Below, piece after piece: positions 12,551 through 21,590 of a DNA stretch of 64,000 nt (its first letter is position 1; every line of letters starts with the position of its first letter). Source of the DNA: Roseobacter sp. (GTDB lineage Bacteria; Pseudomonadota; Alphaproteobacteria; Rhodobacterales; Rhodobacteraceae). The stretch lies in contig JADFAE010000015.1 of the NCBI GenBank assembly GCA_015665415.1, positions 1 through 64,000 on the forward strand. The letters are read 5' to 3'. The notes under the pieces were generated by a model, which saw only the letters and a program-made list of their open reading frames with translations, was not told where the DNA came from and searched no databases. Made by a program: the position numbers and the translations under genes.

Positions 12551-13411
12551 CTAGCTTTGCAGCTCGCGGTGTCTAATTGACACCTGCTGGCCCTGTTCCG
12601 CAAGGGCTTTCGCAAGGGTTTCTGCCAGTGTCACCGAACGATGCTGCCCGCCGGTGCAGCCAAAGGCAATCGACAGATGCGATTTACCCTCTGCCCGATA
12701 GGCCGGCAACAGGAAACAGGTCAGATCCAGAACCCGGGCAAAGAACCCTTCATAGCGCGGATCCGCCCTGACATGGGCCTGCACCTGCGCATCGCGCCCA
12801 TTCAGCTGACGCAGCTCTGCCTGCCAATAGGGATTGGCCAGGAACCGGCAATCAAAGACCAGATCAACGCTGCGCGGCACCCCCCGTTTGTAAGAAAAAC
12901 TCTGCAGCGAGAGCGCCAGCTTGCGGCCCTCGGGCGCAAACAGCAGCTCGATTTCCGCTTTCAGCTGATGCACATTCATATCCGAAGTATCCATCAGCAA
13001 ATTGGCCCGCTCGCGAATCGGTGCCATCAGGCTCAGCTCGCGCTGAACGCCAACAGCGGGCGTCTCTGCGGGGGCCATGGGATGGCGACGTCGGGTTTCG
13101 GAATAGCGCTGCAGCAGAATCTCAGGGCGGGCATCCAGATACAGCACCGAAAGCTCGCAGCCCTCTTGCGCTTCCAACAGGTCAATCACATCCAGCAGGG
13201 CCGCCGGCGAGAAATCCCGGTTGCGACTGTCCAATCCCAAAGCCATCGGCCCCGCCACCCCGGCCGCAGAGACCAGCCCCGGCAACAGGCGCATCGGCAG
13301 GTTGTCAATGGCTTCAAAACCGAGATCCTCCAGCACATTGATCGCAGTGGTCCGCCCCGCCCCAGAGGGGCCGGTCACCAGCACAATCGGCTTAGCCTTG
13401 GCCTCAGACAT
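12551..13411 (-). CDS. rapZ: RNase adapter RapZ-type nucleotide-binding protein
   Basis: 286-residue P-loop protein of the RapZ/YvcJ family. In enterobacteria RapZ delivers a small RNA to RNase E and senses glucosamine-6-phosphate; in alphaproteobacteria the role is less known. The P-loop reads GPSGAGRTT, with Arg where the Walker Lys is usual. FEAIDNLP and the C-terminal FGCTGGQHRSV are family hallmarks. Its start overlaps the hprK end by eight bases. The pairing with HprK and EIIA-Man is conserved in the class. Confidence 0.93.
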   Translation of the reverse strand: MSEAKAKPIVLVTGPSGAGRTTAINVLEDLGFEAIDNLPMRLLPGLVSAAGVAGPMALGLDSRNRDFSPAALLDVIDLLEAQEGCELSVLYLDARPEILLQRYSETRRRHPMAPAETPAVGVQRELSLMAPIRERANLLMDTSDMNVHQLKAEIELLFAPEGRKLALSLQSFSYKRGVPRSVDLVFDCRFLANPYWQAELRQLNGRDAQVQAHVRADPRYEGFFARVLDLTCFLLPAYRAEGKSHLSIAFGCTGGQHRSVTLAETLAKALAEQGQQVSIRHRELQS

Positions 13412-13844
13412 CGGGATCCATCACTCCAGCTTTGAGAAATTGCAGCAGCGCGGCAGCAAAGTGCGCCGCCTGCACCCGGTAAAAGACCATGAGATCCTGC
13501 CCCAGCAGCGCCGCGTGACGGCGGCGTGGGAGACGCTCGGTTTCAAGACGGTCCATCTCGACTATAGCACAGAGCGGAACCGGCCCCTGTGATGCGGCCC
13601 GCAAAATCCCCAGGTGCCTGGCCTCGATGAGCCCGGCCAAGCTGTCCGGGGCGTTGGCCATGACCTGCCCCCCCTGCCGCCAGAGCTGCACTCGGTCATC
13701 CGCCACCAGATCCGCGCCATAGCCCATTAGCTGCAAAGCCAGAGTAGATTTGCCGCTGCCCGAGGCCCCGCGGATCAAAAGCCCACGTCCGGCAAGCGCC
13801 ACACAACTGGCATGCTCGGTCTGACTGGGGGCAACTTGGGGCAT
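13404..13844 (-). CDS. hprK: Short HPr kinase/phosphorylase
   Basis: 146-residue catalytic-domain-only HprK. The P-loop GASGSGKST is at about residues 26-34, the conserved HAS is at 11-13, and a LVADDRV strand holds the acidic pair. Firmicute HprK has about 310 residues with an N-terminal domain; alphaproteobacterial forms are short like this one. It would phosphorylate HPr on Ser46. The ATG at 13844 lies seven bases after the chvG stop with no clear Shine-Dalgarno, so coupling to chvG translation is likely. Confidence 0.9.
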   Translation of the reverse strand: MPQVAPSQTEHASCVALAGRGLLIRGASGSGKSTLALQLMGYGADLVADDRVQLWRQGGQVMANAPDSLAGLIEARHLGILRAASQGPVPLCAIVEMDRLETERLPRRRHAALLGQDLMVFYRVQAAHFAAALLQFLKAGVMDPDV

Positions 13845-13850
13845 CACTAA

Positions 13851-15566
13851 TCAGACAGGCAGGCCAACAACAAATCGGGCCCCCAAGGGCTCAGAGGTGA
13901 CATCCGCTTCGGTGGGGCGAATATTCTCGGCCCAAACCACGCCGCCGTGCGCTTCGACGATCTGTTTCGAGATCGCCAGCCCCAGGCCGGAGTTATTGCC
14001 AAAATGCTCCATGGGGCGCTGCGAATAGAAGCGTTTGAAGACTTTCGACAGTGCCTGTTCGGGAATACCGGGACCGGTGTCTTCGACCACGACCAACACC
14101 CGATTGTCACGGCGCCGGGCCCAGACCCTTATGGCATCCCCTTCTTCGCAAAAGGAAATCGCATTGGTGATCAGATTGACAAAGACCTGGGCCAGACGCG
14201 CCTCCAACCCCTGGATCATCACCGGGTGTTGCGGCAGATCGGTGATATAGTCGATCTCCTTGGCGCGGGCATCCTCTCCCAGATACTGGTTCAGATTGCC
14301 CAGCATCTTGAGCAGGTCGAACTCTTCCTCTTCCTCTTTCACCAGCTCCGCATCCAGCCGCGAGGCATTGGAGATATCGCTGACCAGCCGGTCCAGGCGA
14401 CGCACGTCATGTTCGATCACTTCCATCAGCTTTTCTCGCTGATCATCCCGCTTGACCATGCGCAGGGTGCCAACAGCCGATTGCAGGCTTGCCAGCGGGT
14501 TCTTGATCTCATGGGCCACATCTGCAGCAAATTGTTCGTTGCTGTCGATCCGGCTGTAGAGCGCCTTGACCATGCCCCGCAGCGCCCGGCTCAGGCGGCC
14601 GATCTCATCGGGGCGCGCCGAAAGATCCGGGATTCGCACCCGCCCCGGCTGCGCCTTTCGGGCATCACGATCACGGCCCAGTTCGGCGGCTTCGGCCAGA
14701 TCGGCCAGCGGATTGGCAATGGTAGAGGCCAGCACCAGACTGAGCCCAACGGAGACCAGCAAGGCAATGATGAAAATCTGCAAGACACGTTCGCGCTCAC
14801 CACGCACCAGAGCGTCGATCTCTCCCGCTGGAGAGGCCAGCGCAACAGTGCCGATCACCGTCCCATTGCTGTAGATCGGAGCCACCGCAGAAAAGACCGA
14901 ACCGCCATCCGTGTCAGTCACCAGCTCGATCTGTGCCGCACCAGCCAGGGACTGTTGCGCCAGCTTGCGCAGCTGCTCCTCCAGCGGCTTGATATCGGCT
15001 TGGTCCGGCCCGCTCGACTGGAACACCCCTCCGAGGGCGGACCACAGCGTCGACAGGCCGTCGGAAATCAACGTGCGAGTCTTGGCGCCTTCGTTCAGTG
15101 CATTGAGCGCATCCGGGCGTTCAACCCCGGTCACCTGCGCCACCAGCACCCCGGAGCTATCAAAGACAAAGGCCTCGACCCCGCCGCGCAGGGTCAACCC
15201 ACCCAGGGTATCTGCCACATCAATCCCATCGCCTGTTGTCAGGCTGACAGCCCCGGCAGAGGGCATCACCGCCTCAAAGACATCGGCAATCAGGGAGACC
15301 TCGGCCACCAGCGCGCCAGCCCGCTGCTTGATCAGGCTCTGACGCGAGGAGTTGAGATAAAGCACCCCGGTCACCAACAGGATCAAGGCAATAAGATTGA
15401 AGGTGATGATCTTGCGGGTCAGCGGCGACCCCTTCAGCGAGAAAAAACCTCGCCGGGCCCGCTTGACCTGCATTTCGGCCACAACGGTCTGATCCGGCGC
15501 GACCCAATCGTCGCCCAGAACCACATCGCCATCCTGCTGACCTGTCGTCAGTCCCGTGTCACGCAT
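13851..15566 (-). CDS. chvG: Sensor histidine kinase ChvG (ExoS-type)
   Basis: 571-residue membrane kinase of the ChvG/ChvI envelope- and acid-sensing system. Layout: a cytoplasmic N-tail (1-50), TM1 (about 54-72), a periplasmic sensor region (73-260), TM2 (about 262-282), HAMP, then the HisKA box with phospho-acceptor His352 in AADVAHEIKNPL. The HATPase follows with VEDTGPGIP (G1) and NSGLGLAISKQ (G2). Its response regulator chvI starts 33 bases upstream and hprK follows directly. In rhizobia the periplasmic inhibitor is ExoR; none is seen here. Confidence 0.95.
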   Translation of the reverse strand: MRDTGLTTGQQDGDVVLGDDWVAPDQTVVAEMQVKRARRGFFSLKGSPLTRKIITFNLIALILLVTGVLYLNSSRQSLIKQRAGALVAEVSLIADVFEAVMPSAGAVSLTTGDGIDVADTLGGLTLRGGVEAFVFDSSGVLVAQVTGVERPDALNALNEGAKTRTLISDGLSTLWSALGGVFQSSGPDQADIKPLEEQLRKLAQQSLAGAAQIELVTDTDGGSVFSAVAPIYSNGTVIGTVALASPAGEIDALVRGERERVLQIFIIALLVSVGLSLVLASTIANPLADLAEAAELGRDRDARKAQPGRVRIPDLSARPDEIGRLSRALRGMVKALYSRIDSNEQFAADVAHEIKNPLASLQSAVGTLRMVKRDDQREKLMEVIEHDVRRLDRLVSDISNASRLDAELVKEEEEEFDLLKMLGNLNQYLGEDARAKEIDYITDLPQHPVMIQGLEARLAQVFVNLITNAISFCEEGDAIRVWARRRDNRVLVVVEDTGPGIPEQALSKVFKRFYSQRPMEHFGNNSGLGLAISKQIVEAHGGVVWAENIRPTEADVTSEPLGARFVVGLPV

Positions 15567-15599
15567 TGATGCATGCCTCCCCGGTACAGGGCGCAGACC

Positions 15600-16304
15600 C
15601 TATTCTTCATTATAGCGATAGCCGATCCCATAGAGGGTCTCGATTGCCGCAAAATCGCCGTCCGCCGTCCGCATCTTCTTGCGCAGACGTTTGATGTGGC
15701 TGTCGATGGTTCTGTCGTCGACATAGACCTGGTCATCATAAGCAACATCCATCAACTGATCGCGGCTTTTGACAAAACCGGGACGCTGCGCCAGCGCTTG
15801 TAACAACAGGAATTCTGTGACCGTCAGCGAGACATCATTGCCTTTCCAGCTGACCGCATGCCGCAGCGGATCCATCCGCAGATTGCCCCGTTCCATCACC
15901 TTGGTCTCGGGGCTTTCGATGCCGACCTCTTCGCCGTTCAGCGCATCCTGACGCCGCAACAGGGCGCGGATCCGCTCTACCAATAGACGCTGCGAGAAGG
16001 GTTTTTTGACGTAGTCGTCCGCCCCCATTCGCAGGCCCAGAACCTCGTCGATCTCATCATCCTTGGAGGTGAGAAAGATCACCGGCATCTGGGTTTTCTG
16101 GCGCAGTCGCTGCAACAGATCCATCCCGTCCATGCGCGGCATCTTGATGTCGAGCACAGCCATATCCGGCAGTTTCTTGTTAAAGGCATCCAGTGCGGCC
16201 TGCCCATCATGATAGGTTTCGACCTCAAATCCTTCGGCCTCGAGTGTCATCGCCACCGAAGTCAAAATGTTGCGGTCATCATCCACCAAAGCAATCTTCG
16301 ACAT
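15600..16304 (-). CDS. chvI: Response regulator ChvI
   Basis: 234-residue OmpR-family regulator. The receiver domain has the acidic pair DDD at 8-10, phospho-acceptor Asp52 in [12 protein letters not shown], the conserved Thr in FLTSKDD, and Lys in YVKKPFS. The C-terminal winged helix (about 130-232) includes TVTEFLLL and [16 protein letters not shown]. It is the first gene of the chvI-chvG-hprK-rapZ-EIIA-HPr series and is divergent from pckA, so the shared 354-base region may hold control sites for both. Confidence 0.96.
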
Positions 16305-16658
16305 TGGATTTGCCCCTAAATCTGCTCTGTTATTGCCTGTATTTTTTTTACCTTAATCGCTGTTCTCGACCGCCGAATCAATCCCCATTGGCGAATCGCG
16401 GTAATCTTTGGACATAATTAGGGCAAAAATGTCTTATCATCCGCTGAACATTGCTGCGCGAATAGGCAGCGGCCATAATGGTTGCGCTAAACCGGGATTT
16501 GATGGCGCTAACTGCGCCAAACCGTCCTGTTCAGTCATGGAACCGTCATGTTATGAGCTGCCCAGCCGGTGTCGCTACCGGCCCTTCTGCCCCGATCTGC
16601 CTTGGGGCGCAGCTTTTAATCTATGCGGCAAACATTGCCGGCACAGGAGAGAGAACAC
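16305..16658. other. Divergent chvI/pckA control region with GCGCYAA repeats
   Basis: 354 bases with no gene seen. Three copies of GCGCYAA lie at 16484, 16505 and 16514. The first and third extend to an 11-base match (GCGCTAAACCG / GCGCCAAACCG, one mismatch) spaced exactly 30 bases. The middle copy is part of a loose palindrome around GGCGCT (16498-16515), the kind of centre favoured by LacI-family regulators. The pckA ribosome-binding site is the AGGAGAGAG at 16645-16653. Confidence 0.45.
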
Positions 16659-18257
16659 ATGGCATCTGGACGGGTTAACCCGAATTTCCGCCTCGAGGAT
16701 CAAGGTATCGAGGGTCTGGGCAATGTCCATTACAACCTCATGGAGCCTGCGCTTGTCGAAGCCGCACTGAAGCGCGACGAAGGCACCCTGGGCAATGGTG
16801 GCGCTTTCCTCGTCACCACCGGCAAGTTCACCGGTCGCTCCCCCAAGGACAAGCACGTTGTCAAATCCGACAGCGTCAAGGACACCATCTGGTGGGAAAA
16901 CAACGCCGAAATGAGCCCCGAAGGCTTCGACAACCTCTATGTCGACATGCTGGAGCACATGAAGGGCGGCGACTACCACGTGCAGGATCTGGTTGGCGGT
17001 GCCGACCCCAAGCATTCGATCAATGTCCGCATGGTCACCGAGCTGGCCTGGCACGGGCTGTTCATCCGCACCATGCTGCGTCGCCCCGAGCGCGAAGACC
17101 TGAACGATTTTGTGGCCGACTTTACCGTCATCAACTGCCCCAGCTTCCAGGCTGACCCCAAGCGTCACGACTGCCGCTCTGAAACCGTCATCGCGATGAA
17201 CTTTGACCGCAAGATGATCCTGATCGGTGGCACCGAATATGCTGGTGAAAACAAGAAATCTGTCTTTACCCTGCTGAACTACCTGCTGCCCGAAAAAGGC
17301 ATCATGCCGATGCATTGCTCGGCCAACCACGCCAAGGGCAACCCGGTCGACACGGCGGTGTTCTTTGGCCTGTCCGGCACCGGCAAGACCACCCTGTCTG
17401 CCGATCCCGACCGCGTGCTTATCGGCGACGATGAGCACGGCTGGGCCGACAACGGCACCTTCAACTTTGAGGGCGGCTGCTACGCCAAGACCATCAGCCT
17501 CAACCCCGAGGCTGAGCCGGAAATCTACGCCACCACCTCCAAGTTCGGCACCGTGATCGAAAACATGGTCTTTGACGAAGAGACCAAGGAATTGGATTTC
17601 GAGGACGACAGCCTCACCGCCAACATGCGCTGCGCCTACCCGCTGCACTACATTTCCAACGCCTCGCAGAGCGCAACCGGTGGCCACCCCAAGAACATCA
17701 TCATGCTGACATGTGATGCCTTTGGCGTGTTGCCTCCCATCGCGCGGCTGACCCCGGCGCAGGCCATGTATCACTTCCTCTCCGGCTTCACCTCCAAAGT
17801 GGCCGGCACCGAGCGCGGCGTGACTGAGCCAGAGCCCACATTCTCCACCTGCTTTGGCGCGCCCTTCATGCCACGTCGCCCCGAAGTCTATGGCAACCTG
17901 CTGCGTGAAAAGATCGCTGCCCACGGCGCAACCTGCTGGCTGGTCAACACGGGCTGGACCGGTGGTGCCTATGGCGTTGGCTCGCGCATGCCGATCCGCG
18001 CCACCCGCGCGCTGCTGACCGCCGCGCTCGAGGGCTCACTGGCCGAGGTCGAGTTCCGCAAGGACAGCAACTTTGGCTTTGACGTGCCGGTCTCTGTGCC
18101 TGGTGTTGCCGAAGTGCTGCTGGATCCCCGCCGCACCTGGGACGATCAGGCCGCCTATGACAAACAGGCCGCCAAACTGGTTGAAATGTTCTCGAACAAC
18201 TTCGAACAGTATCTGCCCTATATCGACGAAGACGTAAAAGCCGCCGCGATCAGCTAA
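16659..18257 (+). CDS. pckA: Phosphoenolpyruvate carboxykinase (ATP)
   Basis: Converts oxaloacetate and ATP to PEP, CO2 and ADP, the first committed gluconeogenic step. The 532-residue length suits the ATP-dependent type. The kinase P-loop is [13 protein letters not shown] (about residues 234-246), the metal-site [10 protein letters not shown] follows, and the [10 protein letters not shown] substrate loop is near residue 50. The ATG after AGGAGAGA is clear. It is divergent from chvI; in rhizobia the same neighbours occur and ChvGI influences central carbon use. It is followed by a strong terminator. Confidence 0.97.
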
Positions 18258-18278: not shown

Positions 18279-18316
18279 AAAGCCCCCGGTTTTTTTCACC
18301 GGGGGCTTTTTCTTTT
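18279..18316 (+). terminator. Rho-independent terminator of pckA
   Basis: Perfect arms AAAGCCCCCGGT and ACCGGGGGCTTT around a T-rich loop, followed by more T residues to 18316. It starts 22 bases after the pckA stop. It also shields the end of the convergent caspase-family gene, whose stop is at 18318. Confidence 0.92.
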
Positions 18317-18317
18317 C

Positions 18318-20165
18318 CTACTCGATTTCGATAATGAAGCCCGTGCCGTAGCCCCCGGTCCCGTCGTCCCAATACCGCACCTTGGCACCAGCTCGGTTCA
18401 TCTTGGCCTTAAGCCAGAAACGGGCGATGTGTTGCTGGTTCCGATGGTTGTCCGGATTGCCCGGGCTCCAGCCATTGTAGGTCACGCGATCACCGTTTGC
18501 CCACTCCCAGCCCCCGGCAGGTTCATTGCTGAAATCCACTTGATGCAAGCCGATGTTGGGGCCCATCTGGTGCCCCTGCCAATCCTTGTGAATGAAGGTT
18601 TCATCCTGCGAGAACAAATCTACCAGAAAGTCGTTTTCCACGCGGCTGCCGATAGCAACCAGATGGCCTCCGGCCTTTTGGGCAAGTTCGGAGGTGAATT
18701 TCCAGGAGCTGCCGGTCCAGGGGGTCGAAACCACGATGTAGAGATGTCCCTGAAAATAGTCGAAAAGCAACTTGCGTCCTTTCAAGGCCAGCAGGGCCTT
18801 TCGCAAGCGTGGCTCGAGACCTGAGGGAAGATCTTCGGGAAGGTAGCTGCGTGCTTTGTCCGACTGCAGTTGTCGCAGAATCAGGGCATTGGGGAGAATA
18901 CGAAGCAAGGCCACATCCACATTGGTCCCCGGGGCAAGTCCGGCCCGGGTACGGGCCTTGCCGATGGCACGGCGGGATTTAGGCCCGAACTGGCCATCCA
19001 CGCCGCCAGTGTCAAACCCCATCATGTTCAGGGATTGCTGGATCAACTGACGGTCTTGCCGTGTCAAAGAGATTTGCTCACCACTGCGGACAGCGGTCGC
19101 CAACCAAGGCTCGCCGATGCTGTAGCCCCGATCAATATCGCGATCCAGAAGCAGCGCCGCCATCCTCTCCTCTGCCAGCTCCAGCAGAGGGTGCCCCTCA
19201 TGCACCTGATGCTTTTGCAGGAAAGACCGCCAGGCCGTTGGGCTTTGCCGCTCGGAGGTCACTGCAAAGTCGCGTGAAAGCTCCTGATCATCCAGGATCG
19301 GCGCGGGCGGCGGTGCCTCAGCTACTGGCACAGGGATCGGCATCGCAACCGGCAAAGGGTCGACCAGATAGATGTCGTGCCCGGGCAAAGAGCCGTAGAC
19401 AAAGGGCTCTTGCTGCTGCTCCGTTACCTCAAAGACGCTGTCGCGTACCTTGCGAAAGAGTTTGCCCAGTTCCAGCCCCGGGGTTTCCAGATGCTCCATC
19501 AGCGCCATCGCATAGGGGCTGTTGCGCTGATGACCATCAAGGGCATAGGTTCCCCCCTTGGCCGCATAGCCAACAACAACACCCGTGGGTTCAATCCGCG
19601 CCAGACCTCGGCCAATGGACCGCGTAGCACCACTCTGGCGCATGCTGACCCGAAACGGATTGTCACGGCAGGCATCAATCAGCACGATCTTGAGCCCCTT
19701 CGGGGCCGCCAGAGCACTCAGCAGGGCGTCCAGGCGAAGCGCTTCGAACTCGACATCAGAAGCGCGCTTCAGCTCCGCATTGATGGGGATCAGATAATTG
19801 GTGTTCTCTATCTCGATGCCATGCCCTGCATAGTAAAGCAGCGCGATATCCGCGTTTTCGGCTTGTTCAGAGAAATCCCGTACAGCCAGGCGCATATCGC
19901 GATAATCTAGGTCGATGGCCTCGGTCACTTCGAAACCGATACGCCGCAGGGTTTGCGCCAGATCCAGCGCGTCATTTGTCGGGTTCTGTAAGCGCGGCAC
20001 ATGGGAGTACGCACCATTGCCAATGACAAGTGCGACACGGCGTTCGGTGGTGCTCGCAGTCGCCGCAACTGCAAAGCCAAACAGAACCACTGACAAAGGC
20101 AGAAACAGCCGGCAACGGCTGACATCAACACAGCTCAAGAAAACAGATTTGAACAATTCAAACAC
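18318..20165 (-). CDS. Secreted caspase-family protease fused to peptidoglycan-binding and C-type-lectin-like domains
   Basis: 615 residues. A signal peptide or anchor (about 1-40, ending VAATAS) precedes a caspase-like p20 domain (about 42-270), with the catalytic His in LLYYAGHGIE (about H115) and the catalytic Cys in VLIDACRDNPF (about C166). A Pro-rich linker follows, then a PG_binding_1 repeat (about 363-425: IQQSLNMMGFDTGGVDGQFG). The end is a C-type-lectin-like domain (about 465-615), with AGGHLVAIGSRVENDFL, a GGWEWANGDRVTYNGW block, the GNPDN loop and closing WDDGTGG...GFIIEIE. No disulphide Cys are present in that domain. The GTG start at 20165 has GGGGAA eight bases upstream. No caspase partner is adjacent. 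Confidence 0.85.
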   Translation of the reverse strand: MFELFKSVFLSCVDVSRCRLFLPLSVVLFGFAVAATASTTERRVALVIGNGAYSHVPRLQNPTNDALDLAQTLRRIGFEVTEAIDLDYRDMRLAVRDFSEQAENADIALLYYAGHGIEIENTNYLIPINAELKRASDVEFEALRLDALLSALAAPKGLKIVLIDACRDNPFRVSMRQSGATRSIGRGLARIEPTGVVVGYAAKGGTYALDGHQRNSPYAMALMEHLETPGLELGKLFRKVRDSVFEVTEQQQEPFVYGSLPGHDIYLVDPLPVAMPIPVPVAEAPPPAPILDDQELSRDFAVTSERQSPTAWRSFLQKHQVHEGHPLLELAEERMAALLLDRDIDRGYSIGEPWLATAVRSGEQISLTRQDRQLIQQSLNMMGFDTGGVDGQFGPKSRRAIGKARTRAGLAPGTNVDVALLRILPNALILRQLQSDKARSYLPEDLPSGLEPRLRKALLALKGRKLLFDYFQGHLYIVVSTPWTGSSWKFTSELAQKAGGHLVAIGSRVENDFLVDLFSQDETFIHKDWQGHQMGPNIGLHQVDFSNEPAGGWEWANGDRVTYNGWSPGNPDNHRNQQHIARFWLKAKMNRAGAKVRYWDDGTGGYGTGFIIEIE

Positions 20166-20237
20166 GACACCAATTCCCCAGCACAATACACAGGGGACAA
20201 CTTAGCACAGAGTTCTATTGCGCCAAAATTGCGGGGT

Positions 20238-21590
20238 TCAGATCCGCCCGGACACCATGTCCCGCACCTTGACCGCATAACGGTCGGTCATGCCGGAAAC
20301 AAAATCCGCCAGCGCATGCGTGGCGGAATAGGCATCCGATATATCGCGCAGGTCCAGACCCACCGCCCGCACCAGCTTGGCCCAATAGCCGTGACGCGCC
20401 AGGAACAATTCACTGTCCCAACCGCAGTCGCGCAGATCCCCATACAGCCCATGAAAGTGATCCAGCACCGCAAAGATCACAGAGCGGCCCGCGATCTCCA
20501 GCTCGGTCTTGCGCTGCGCGGTAAAGATCCGCGCGTTAGAGATATCCTTCACCTGGGCAAAGGCCTCTGCCTTGGAGGAGACCTCCATCAAGCCATCATT
20601 GAAATCCCCAGCCATGATCGCATCATAGTTGGCCATAAAGGCCTCGACCGCGGCCTCGATCGCCTGATGAATGGCCCCCGCCCGGCGCATCGCCACGACC
20701 TCAGCCACGGTCATGGATGCGTCGTCTGCGCGATTTGGCTTGCCCGCGATCTCTTCCAGGCAGGTGATCACCTGCTGCGCGCTCAGGTCGCCAACTGTAG
20801 CGGCATCCTCAAGATCCAGAATGCGGTAACAGATGTCATCTGCCGCCTCGACCAGAAAGGCCAGCGGATGGCGACGCCAGTATTTGCCTACGCCGACACC
20901 CTCGGCCCGCAGCCCCAACGCCTCTGCAACCTCGGCGAACAGCACCGCCTCGGATTGGAAAACGCCAAATTTCTTGAGCCCGACATAGCCCGGTTCTGCC
21001 TGCTGGCGCGCCTCTGCGGTGCAAGGATATTTCATGAAAGCCCCCAGCGTCGCATAGGACAGCCGCATGCCGCCCGCGCGCCGCGCCATCTCCAACCGAG
21101 CCGCAATGCGAAAGCCCTGGGCGTTGCCCTCAAAGGCTTCGAACTCTGCCTGTTGCGCCTGGGGAATGCTGCCTGCAACCCCGGTGCCCGCTTGAAACTG
21201 CTGGGCAAACCACTGGCCAATGCTGTCCTCGCCGGAATGACCAAAGGGGGGATTGCCAATGTCGTGCAAAAGACAGGCCGCCTGAATTGTGCCCGCGATG
21301 GCGTCGCGTTGCGCCTCGCTGATCAACCCCCGCTCCAGCATCGCCTGCCCTGCCAGCACCCCAAGCGAGCGCCCAGCGCTGGCGGTTTCCAGGCTATGGA
21401 TCATCCGGTGATGCACATGGTCATGTTCATACAGAGGATGCACCTGGGTCTTTTGCGCCAGACGGCGAAAGGGTTCGGAAAACAGGATCCGGTCATAGTC
21501 CTGCAGATAAGCCGGACGCCCAGGCGCCTCTGCGAATTCCGGGCGACACAAACGTCCGGGGTTCAACAACCTCTCCCATTGCATCGTCAT
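20238..21590 (-). CDS. dgt: Deoxyguanosinetriphosphate triphosphohydrolase-like protein
   Basis: 450-residue HD-domain dNTP triphosphohydrolase that splits dNTPs into nucleosides and tripolyphosphate, controlling dNTP pools. The metal-binding His/Asp set is seen in HHRMIHSLE (about residue 62) and LLHDIGNPPFGHSGED (about 111-126). The N-terminus RILFSEPFRRLAQKTQV and the C-terminal region (SDAYSATHALADFVSGMTDRYA) are family-typical. The ATG at 21590 has AGGAG eight bases before it. It follows the caspase-family gene's strand, with a short gap. Confidence 0.92.
   Translation of the reverse strand: MTMQWERLLNPGRLCRPEFAEAPGRPAYLQDYDRILFSEPFRRLAQKTQVHPLYEHDHVHHRMIHSLETASAGRSLGVLAGQAMLERGLISEAQRDAIAGTIQAACLLHDIGNPPFGHSGEDSIGQWFAQQFQAGTGVAGSIPQAQQAEFEAFEGNAQGFRIAARLEMARRAGGMRLSYATLGAFMKYPCTAEARQQAEPGYVGLKKFGVFQSEAVLFAEVAEALGLRAEGVGVGKYWRRHPLAFLVEAADDICYRILDLEDAATVGDLSAQQVITCLEEIAGKPNRADDASMTVAEVVAMRRAGAIHQAIEAAVEAFMANYDAIMAGDFNDGLMEVSSKAEAFAQVKDISNARIFTAQRKTELEIAGRSVIFAVLDHFHGLYGDLRDCGWDSELFLARHGYWAKLVRAVGLDLRDISDAYSATHALADFVSGMTDRYAVKVRDMVSGRI

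Follow-up and report, generated by a model that had tools for sequence, protein, structure and literature searches.

What does a bacterium do with a caspase-like protease that is followed by a peptidoglycan-binding repeat and a lectin-like end? A gene of this kind lies in the 64,000-nucleotide stretch of Roseobacter sp. DNA analysed here (the window). The best-known bacterial caspases are cytoplasmic and act in cell death or phage defence. The initial annotation of the window had suggested, from the sequence letters, an extracellular or periplasmic protease that reads a glycan, unlike the usual bacterial caspases and perhaps involved in defence, predation or self-lysis.

Organization of the Gene and of the Locus

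The strand of the gene had not been stated and is minus according to the open reading frame (ORF), which runs from position 20165 to a stop codon at 18318 and encodes 615 residues with no stop in between. It starts with GTG, and a TTG codon located 21 bases upstream would yield 622 residues. The following features were recognized in the gene and on both sides of it:

18318–20165, minus strand: caspase–PG_binding_1–CTLD gene, 615 amino acids and stop codon, starting with GTG, with TTG at 20186 as an alternative start
20046–20165, minus strand: signal-like segment, residues 1–40, hydrophobic core LFLPLSVVLFGFAV, 14-residue hydropathy peak of 2.51
19389–20042, minus strand: Peptidase_C14 caspase domain, residues 42–259, Pfam E-value 9.8e-41, best Foldseek match MALT1 (7.3e-18)
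19821–19823, minus strand: catalytic His115 (GHG), aligned with YYAGHG of MALT1
19668–19670, minus strand: catalytic Cys166 (DACRD), aligned with DMCRK of MALT1, the sole cysteine past the signal segment
19587–19631, minus strand: Arg-rich loop, residues 179–193, candidate self-processing linker, pLDDT below 50
18900–19061, minus strand: PG_binding_1, residues 369–422, Pfam E-value 5.2e-6, above the cut-off
18321–18773, minus strand: C-type-lectin-like domain (CTLD), residues 465–615, no cysteine, from profile and predicted fold
18447–18461, minus strand: GNPDN, residues 569–573, aligned where C-type lectins have the EPN/QPD sugar motif
18363–18371, minus strand: WDD, residues 599–601, aligned at the place of WND
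16623–18257, plus strand: pckA, converging neighbour, NCBIfam and Pfam PEPCK
20238–21590, minus strand: dgt, dGTP triphosphohydrolase, TIGR01353 (302 bits for a cut-off of 152)
18279–18309, no strand assigned: G+C-rich hairpin in the gap where the 3' ends of pckA and the caspase gene converge, a possible shared terminator, noted by eye

The protein begins with the hydrophobic signal-like segment; the caspase domain is followed by a helical linker, the PG_binding_1 domain, a short bridge and, from about residue 465, the CTLD. The motifs reported previously were all located: WEWANGDRVTYNGW, GHG (residues 114–116), DAC (from 164), GNPDN (from 569) and WDD (from 599). An orthologue with 61% identity is present at the equivalent locus in one genome of the same genus (G298), and the frame is therefore not a chance ORF.

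The 3' end of dgt is situated 72 bases upstream of the caspase gene on the same strand, and the caspase gene and pckA are convergent. Nine window genes around the caspase gene were scanned with NCBIfam. No partner gene was recognized adjoining the window copy, which lies between pckA and dgt, nor was any toxin, immunity or secretion gene. A row of genes at 12554–18257 encodes RapZ, an HPr-kinase-like protein, a ChvG-like sensor kinase, a response regulator and pckA; the ChvG model match is below its cut-off, and about 3 kb separate this membrane-bound two-component sensor from the caspase gene.

A Paracaspase-Like Protease Domain

The Peptidase_C14 score of 140.4 bits is far above the Pfam cut-off (21.4 bits). 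The paracaspase MALT1 was the best solved match, by sequence as well as by predicted fold, and its chains filled ranks 1–34 among the best 50 Foldseek matches listed for the caspase model. The expected His/Cys pair was borne out, H115 and C166 being placed as in this active caspase. Both motifs are intact in all 18 proteins with the same domain order (described below).

MALT1 is an Arg-specific paracaspase. Residues D65 and D164 align with two acidic positions of MALT1, presumably the acidic residues of its S1 pocket, and are invariant in 12/12 and 18/18 rows of relatives. A preference for cleavage after Arg or Lys, putative as it derives from two conserved acidic positions, is therefore expected. 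The Arg-rich loop at residues 179–193 is a candidate site of self-processing, in a region of low confidence of the model. The full-length model has a pTM of 0.45, too low to fix the arrangement of the domains relative to each other. The window genome possesses four further caspase genes. Assignment of the window protein to the EACC1-type caspases was rejected (NCBIfam NF047832, 56 bits for a cut-off of 140).

Export and the Peptidoglycan-Binding Domain

Judging from hydropathy, export of the protein across the inner membrane is probable. A hydropathy peak of 1.85–2.84 precedes the caspase domain in the 18 proteins of the same architecture, and the threshold of 1.8 was reached by none of 782 control stretches taken inside caspase domains. 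The catalytic cysteine is the only one from the start of the caspase domain onward in 11 of the 18 proteins, and the other seven have exactly two more, all of them C-terminal. Such a small number of cysteines is as expected for an oxidising compartment.

These N-terminal features are ordinary in this family. Thirty-four caspases were compared, a non-random set made of the best caspase from each of 30 family genomes (that of the window included) and the four other caspases of the window genome. A hydropathy peak was observed just before the caspase domain in 33 of them, and at an E-value of 1e-3 PG_binding_1 was detected in 29 (counted at E ≤ 0.001, not at the Pfam cut-off), Sel1 repeats in 19 and Lectin_C in three. 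The signal-like segment and PG_binding_1 are the local norm for caspases of the Rhodobacteraceae sample, and the idea that either would be special to the window protein was rejected. The extracellular or periplasmic location holds by inference from hydropathy; the presumed difference from the usual bacterial caspases is not supported for the signal-like segment or PG_binding_1. The CTLD is the unusual part of this architecture.

The predicted PG_binding_1 domain was found, with 27 bits for a cut-off of 23. Domains of this family are not always peptidoglycan binders. Contact with the wall through this domain is putative.

The C-Terminal Domain Has a C-Type-Lectin-Like Fold

The Pfam Lectin_C model matched the C-terminal domain at 0.0027 and 18.8 bits, short of its cut-off of 22.6 bits, which was passed by 4/6 cyclase-linked relatives of the domain (see below). 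A CTLD profile made of 11 rows matched animal C-type lectins of the PDB, with single-domain lectins from 2.1e-10; the best whole-sequence E-value, 4.7e-17, belonged to a receptor with several domains, each of which scores weakly by itself. An AlphaFold2 model of residues 430–615 reached a mean pLDDT of 78.5 and a pTM of 0.81 from an alignment of only five sequences. In Foldseek, it matched the CRD2 of Endo180 (2.1e-6, TM-score 0.74 on the target and 0.52 on the query), as well as lithostathine, SPL-1, langerin and the mannose receptor. All of the best 50 rows listed were C-type lectin or CTLD structures. The modelled structure thus supports a CTLD fold for the end of the protein, as had been anticipated from its motifs.

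Binding of a sugar is another matter. The GNPDN and WDD sites, which stand where C-type lectins have the EPN/QPD and WND calcium ligands, keep the calcium motif in part, with NPD in the place of EPN/QPD and WDD in the place of WND. The site varies among relatives, and E-P-N is seen in 2/18 of the caspase–PG_binding_1–CTLD proteins. The domain resembles animal CTLDs such as Endo180 CRD2 and the mannose receptor in its fold and in the WxW, W..G.PDN and WDD landmarks, and differs from them by the lack of cysteine and by the incomplete calcium motif. As judged from this incomplete site, sugar binding is unproven, and the statement that the protein reads a glycan is not supported as it was made. 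Many CTLDs bind proteins or work without calcium, and SPL-1, titled Ca2+-independent, is among the structural matches.

Comparison with the G298 orthologue showed identities of 79% for the caspase, 75% for PG_binding_1, 66% for the CTLD and 46% for the linker. The CTLD has diverged more than the caspase, but its ligand-side stretches WSPGNPDN, QHIARF and RYWDDG are identical in the two proteins.

Distribution of the Three-Domain Proteins

A search for the same domain order recovered 18 distinct proteins in Rhodobacteraceae and Rhizobiales (Mesorhizobium, Ensifer and Rhizobium for the latter), with an identical order in all. They were drawn from the family sample plus named records and plasmids. 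The set was corrected by hand: a G082 gene present twice was counted once, two truncated copies of genes represented in full elsewhere were removed, and the G298 orthologue was included.

In the family sample of 295 genomes, 77 had caspases matching that of the window at 1e-30, 21 had any CTLD-profile match at 1e-4, and six had a strong CTLD match fused to a caspase. These six accounted for 11 genes (three each in G055 and G082, two in G193 and one each in G000, G043 and G240). In a class-wide sample, 6 of 385 genomes had a CTLD match, two strong (both in Rhodobacteraceae) and four weak. Within the genus, 2 of 12 genomes matched the CTLD profile and had the gene in full length; in the other ten, pckA and dgt stand side by side with no caspase match in between. 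The window genome has a single CTLD-profile match, the gene itself, and the profile search found no second copy of the domain. A selection by full-length alignment and the two caspase motifs gave at least 80 loci, mostly from Bradyrhizobium, numbers that are not frequencies.

Some relatives are carried by plasmids, one of which, pP14_b of Phaeobacter piscinae, is typed as conjugative and has IS elements near the gene. The relative on this plasmid shows 55% identity in an alignment spanning 92% of the protein. Genes for IS transposases flank it on one side, and the other side has, in the first 6 kb or so, dgt, TcmP and genes of the phage Gp37/Gp68 family.

The CTLD Is Shared with Cyclases and Has Moved between Caspases

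The best-scoring relatives of the CTLD outside caspases were six proteins in which it follows a cyclase and a transmembrane (TM) segment (117–132 bits, compared to at most 82 for the others). All six are above the Guanylate_cyc cut-off, and each has a TM-like peak between the cyclase and the CTLD, so that the CTLD should face outside, the place of a sensor. These class III cyclases (L181, L163, L164, L165, L211 and L212) belong to Rhodobacteraceae and Rhizobium. One genome, G043, has both a caspase-linked and a cyclase-linked CTLD.

Caspase trees were built with 88 rows and with 48 rows (the 18 proteins and 30 hand-picked ones), out of 170 distinct rows. The CTLD-bearing caspases appeared in two places, nine of them forming a clade (support 100/98), and monophyly of all 18 was rejected in the 48-row tree (p-AU 7e-8). 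The CTLD trees comprised 27 and 24 rows with one long branch (L012). Caspase-linked and cyclase-linked CTLDs grouped together with a support of 100/100 against three outgroup rows, the only ones in the 27-row tree, and the cyclase-linked CTLDs clustered together in both trees (86/93 or 93/97). The grouping of the other nine was rejected by the CTLD tree (p-AU 0.007), a group that was defined on the caspase tree once the first CTLD tree was known.

Since the caspase and CTLD trees disagree, the CTLD module has moved. The trees indicate at least one event in which the CTLD, and perhaps PG_binding_1 with it, was added to a caspase lineage or swapped between such lineages. A caspase without CTLD, L043, falls within the first caspase group of the 88-row tree, a placement that also requires loss or replacement of the CTLD. 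Because the caspases do not form one clade and the nearest CTLDs found without a caspase are on cyclases, the CTLD looks like an exchangeable module, best read as the part of the protease that senses or targets.

Cyclases with a CHASE2 Domain in the Neighbourhood

In G193 and G043, the caspase–PG_binding_1–CTLD gene is found with genes for a CHASE2-cyclase and for a protein with DUF928, a domain whose function is unknown, in a different gene order. The three-gene set, present in two genera, is located as follows:

L041:3705–8022 and L042:3030–7518: CHASE2-cyclase, DUF928 protein and caspase–PG_binding_1–CTLD

In G055, a CHASE2-cyclase lies between two of the three copies. Out of the 73 listed CHASE2 places, the test took the 29 that occur in 19 genomes for which a caspase was also listed; G027, which has both families, was left out as the place of its caspase was not listed. 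Four were at most 6 kb away from a caspase of the list, for 0.21 expected (Poisson, 6.6e-5, an optimistic value as two of the neighbourhoods had already been seen and prompted the test), and 25 were away from any listed caspase. Three of the four adjoin CTLD-bearing caspases. The fourth, in G101, adjoins a caspase for which no CTLD is known, in a genome without CTLD-profile match. CHASE2-cyclase-like ORFs were seen in 5 of the at least 80 loci (L059, L060, L112, L115 and L134), L059 and L060 being the G193 and G043 loci again. A metacaspase–CHASE2 fusion is recorded for Trichodesmium in the available part of PMC3501461.

It is conceivable, although we hold it to be distinctly improbable, that a periplasmic caspase-to-cyclase axis exists, in which CTLD-caspases would sense a wall ligand and cut the extracytoplasmic part of CHASE2- or CTLD-cyclases. 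The idea comes from the CHASE2 genes beside caspases, from the repeated three-gene set and from the CTLD common to both types of protein. Such an axis would turn surface recognition into an internal cyclic-nucleotide signal, by analogy with receptor-proximal paracaspase signalling. No CHASE2 was found by search of the window genome, and no CTLD-cyclase by the CTLD profile, so the window caspase would need another target. That 25 of the 29 CHASE2 genes stand apart from listed caspases also speaks against the axis.

Proposed Function and Alternatives

We propose, with about even confidence, that the window protein is a periplasmic protease of Arg/Lys type, gated or targeted by a ligand, with the CTLD as input module. 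In this model, Sec export would place a cysteine protease of the paracaspase/orthocaspase type in the periplasm, where it would be expected to cut after Arg or Lys. PG_binding_1 would hold it near the cell wall. The C-terminal CTLD would bind a ligand, glycan or protein, present at the envelope or coming through it, and binding would either free the caspase or bring a substrate to it. The outcome would be the regulated cleavage of an envelope protein, for signalling or remodelling and not for bulk lysis. The results obtained here are the domains, the intact His/Cys pair, the CTLD fold, the presence of the CTLD family on receptor-like cyclases, and the exchange of the CTLD among lineages of caspases; export, wall contact, P1 specificity and gating are inferred. 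A probable outside location, a putative wall domain, a module known otherwise from receptor-like cyclases and an intact protease fit together in this proposal. Gating and mere tethering by the CTLD would look alike in the sequence. The roles in defence, predation or self-lysis evoked initially have no direct support, and the cyclase links point at least as much to signalling, which for this protease seems more likely than suicide.

The same domains could serve a secreted or surface effector against other cells, phages or hosts, the CTLD sticking to the target and the caspase killing or disarming it. The patchy occurrence (2/12 genomes of the genus and 6/295 of the family), the plasmid-borne relatives (one of them on the conjugative-typed pP14_b, near IS elements) and the presence of up to three copies per genome would suit such a role, as would the divergence of the gene, which between G000 and G298 is 61% identical when the flanking dgt and pckA are 85% and 97% identical. 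A weak match to a PADLOC caspase model (2.7e-6, 24.9 bits) reflects only the caspase fold. With no toxin, immunity or secretion gene recognized beside the window copy, and a signal-like segment that points to the periplasm, we regard an effector as unlikely, though as the main alternative. Patchiness argues against a second alternative, an envelope housekeeping protease held by PG_binding_1 and the CTLD at the wall or at one substrate without any sensing. PG_binding_1 on 29/34 of the scanned caspases is in keeping with that role, and so are the many CTLDs that bind proteins or act without calcium, with the SPL-1 match; the occurrence of the CTLD family on receptor-like cyclases argues for sensing, and we also judge this explanation to be rather unlikely.

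Lastly, the CTLD could be a variable receptor diversified by a retroelement (DGR), by comparison with the CLec-orthocaspases of cyanobacteria, published as DGR targets (PMC7517822, part of the text). In the window genome, a draft of 40 contigs, RVT_1 had no match, when control matches were obtained in 3/14 genomes, and a second copy of the 3' end of the gene was not found. The ligand-side stretches are, moreover, identical in the G298 orthologue. With neither reverse transcriptase nor template repeat in this draft, a DGR target was rejected for the window genome, and we give the explanation hardly any credit.

Relation to Known Caspases

MALT1 is a human cytoplasmic signalling protein with other domains. 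It shares the fold, the dyad and the two acidic positions with the window caspase, and has no peptidoglycan-binding or CTLD part. Among prokaryotic proteins, the orthocaspases or metacaspases surveyed by Asplund-Samuelsson et al. (2012, PMC3501461) are alike in combining a caspase with a putative peptidoglycan-binding domain, reported there for 11 of 671 sequences, and an N-terminal helix, possibly a signal peptide, is reported for 46. The main text of that survey does not contain the word lectin, and a CTLD end common to cyclases is not described in the part consulted. The CLec-orthocaspases mentioned above are similar in that the available text of PMC7517822 proposes their C-terminal CLec fold as the ligand-binding part. 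The window protein differs by the absence of reverse transcriptase or second repeat, by the PG_binding_1 in between, by its signal-like segment and by a CTLD of the Lectin_C-like type. In the two-gene EACC1-caspase conflict systems of a 2020 eLife survey (PMC7159879, part of the text), a cNMP cyclase sometimes takes the place of the caspase; the exchange of caspase and cyclase is similar here but takes place on a module facing outside.

The associations of a caspase with a peptidoglycan-binding domain and with a CLec fold are therefore each already published, and the three-part combination was not found described. In the open-access literature searched, we found no description of caspase, PG_binding and CTLD together, or of CTLD-cyclases. 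A recurrent family that seems to act beyond the inner membrane and has a lectin-fold module in common with receptor-like cyclases would give caspases a surface-sensing role in common environmental bacteria. Its members are small testable cases for what switches on a bacterial caspase and what it cuts.

Clusters of Caspases with Different Ends

Two clusters were observed among the relatives. In G055, six caspase genes with differing C-terminal ends are gathered in about 25 kb (L038:8568–14208 and L039:3819–15853). Three ends are PG_binding_1–CTLD; the other three, identified by eye only, are SH3-like, LprI-like and another. The cluster resembles a local repertoire, in which one protease has exchanged ends. 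In a metagenome-assembled genome (MAG) of Hyphomicrobiales (L117:2233–11263), three successive ORFs of 1275, 930 and 887 amino acids each end in a caspase domain, and the last two overlap.
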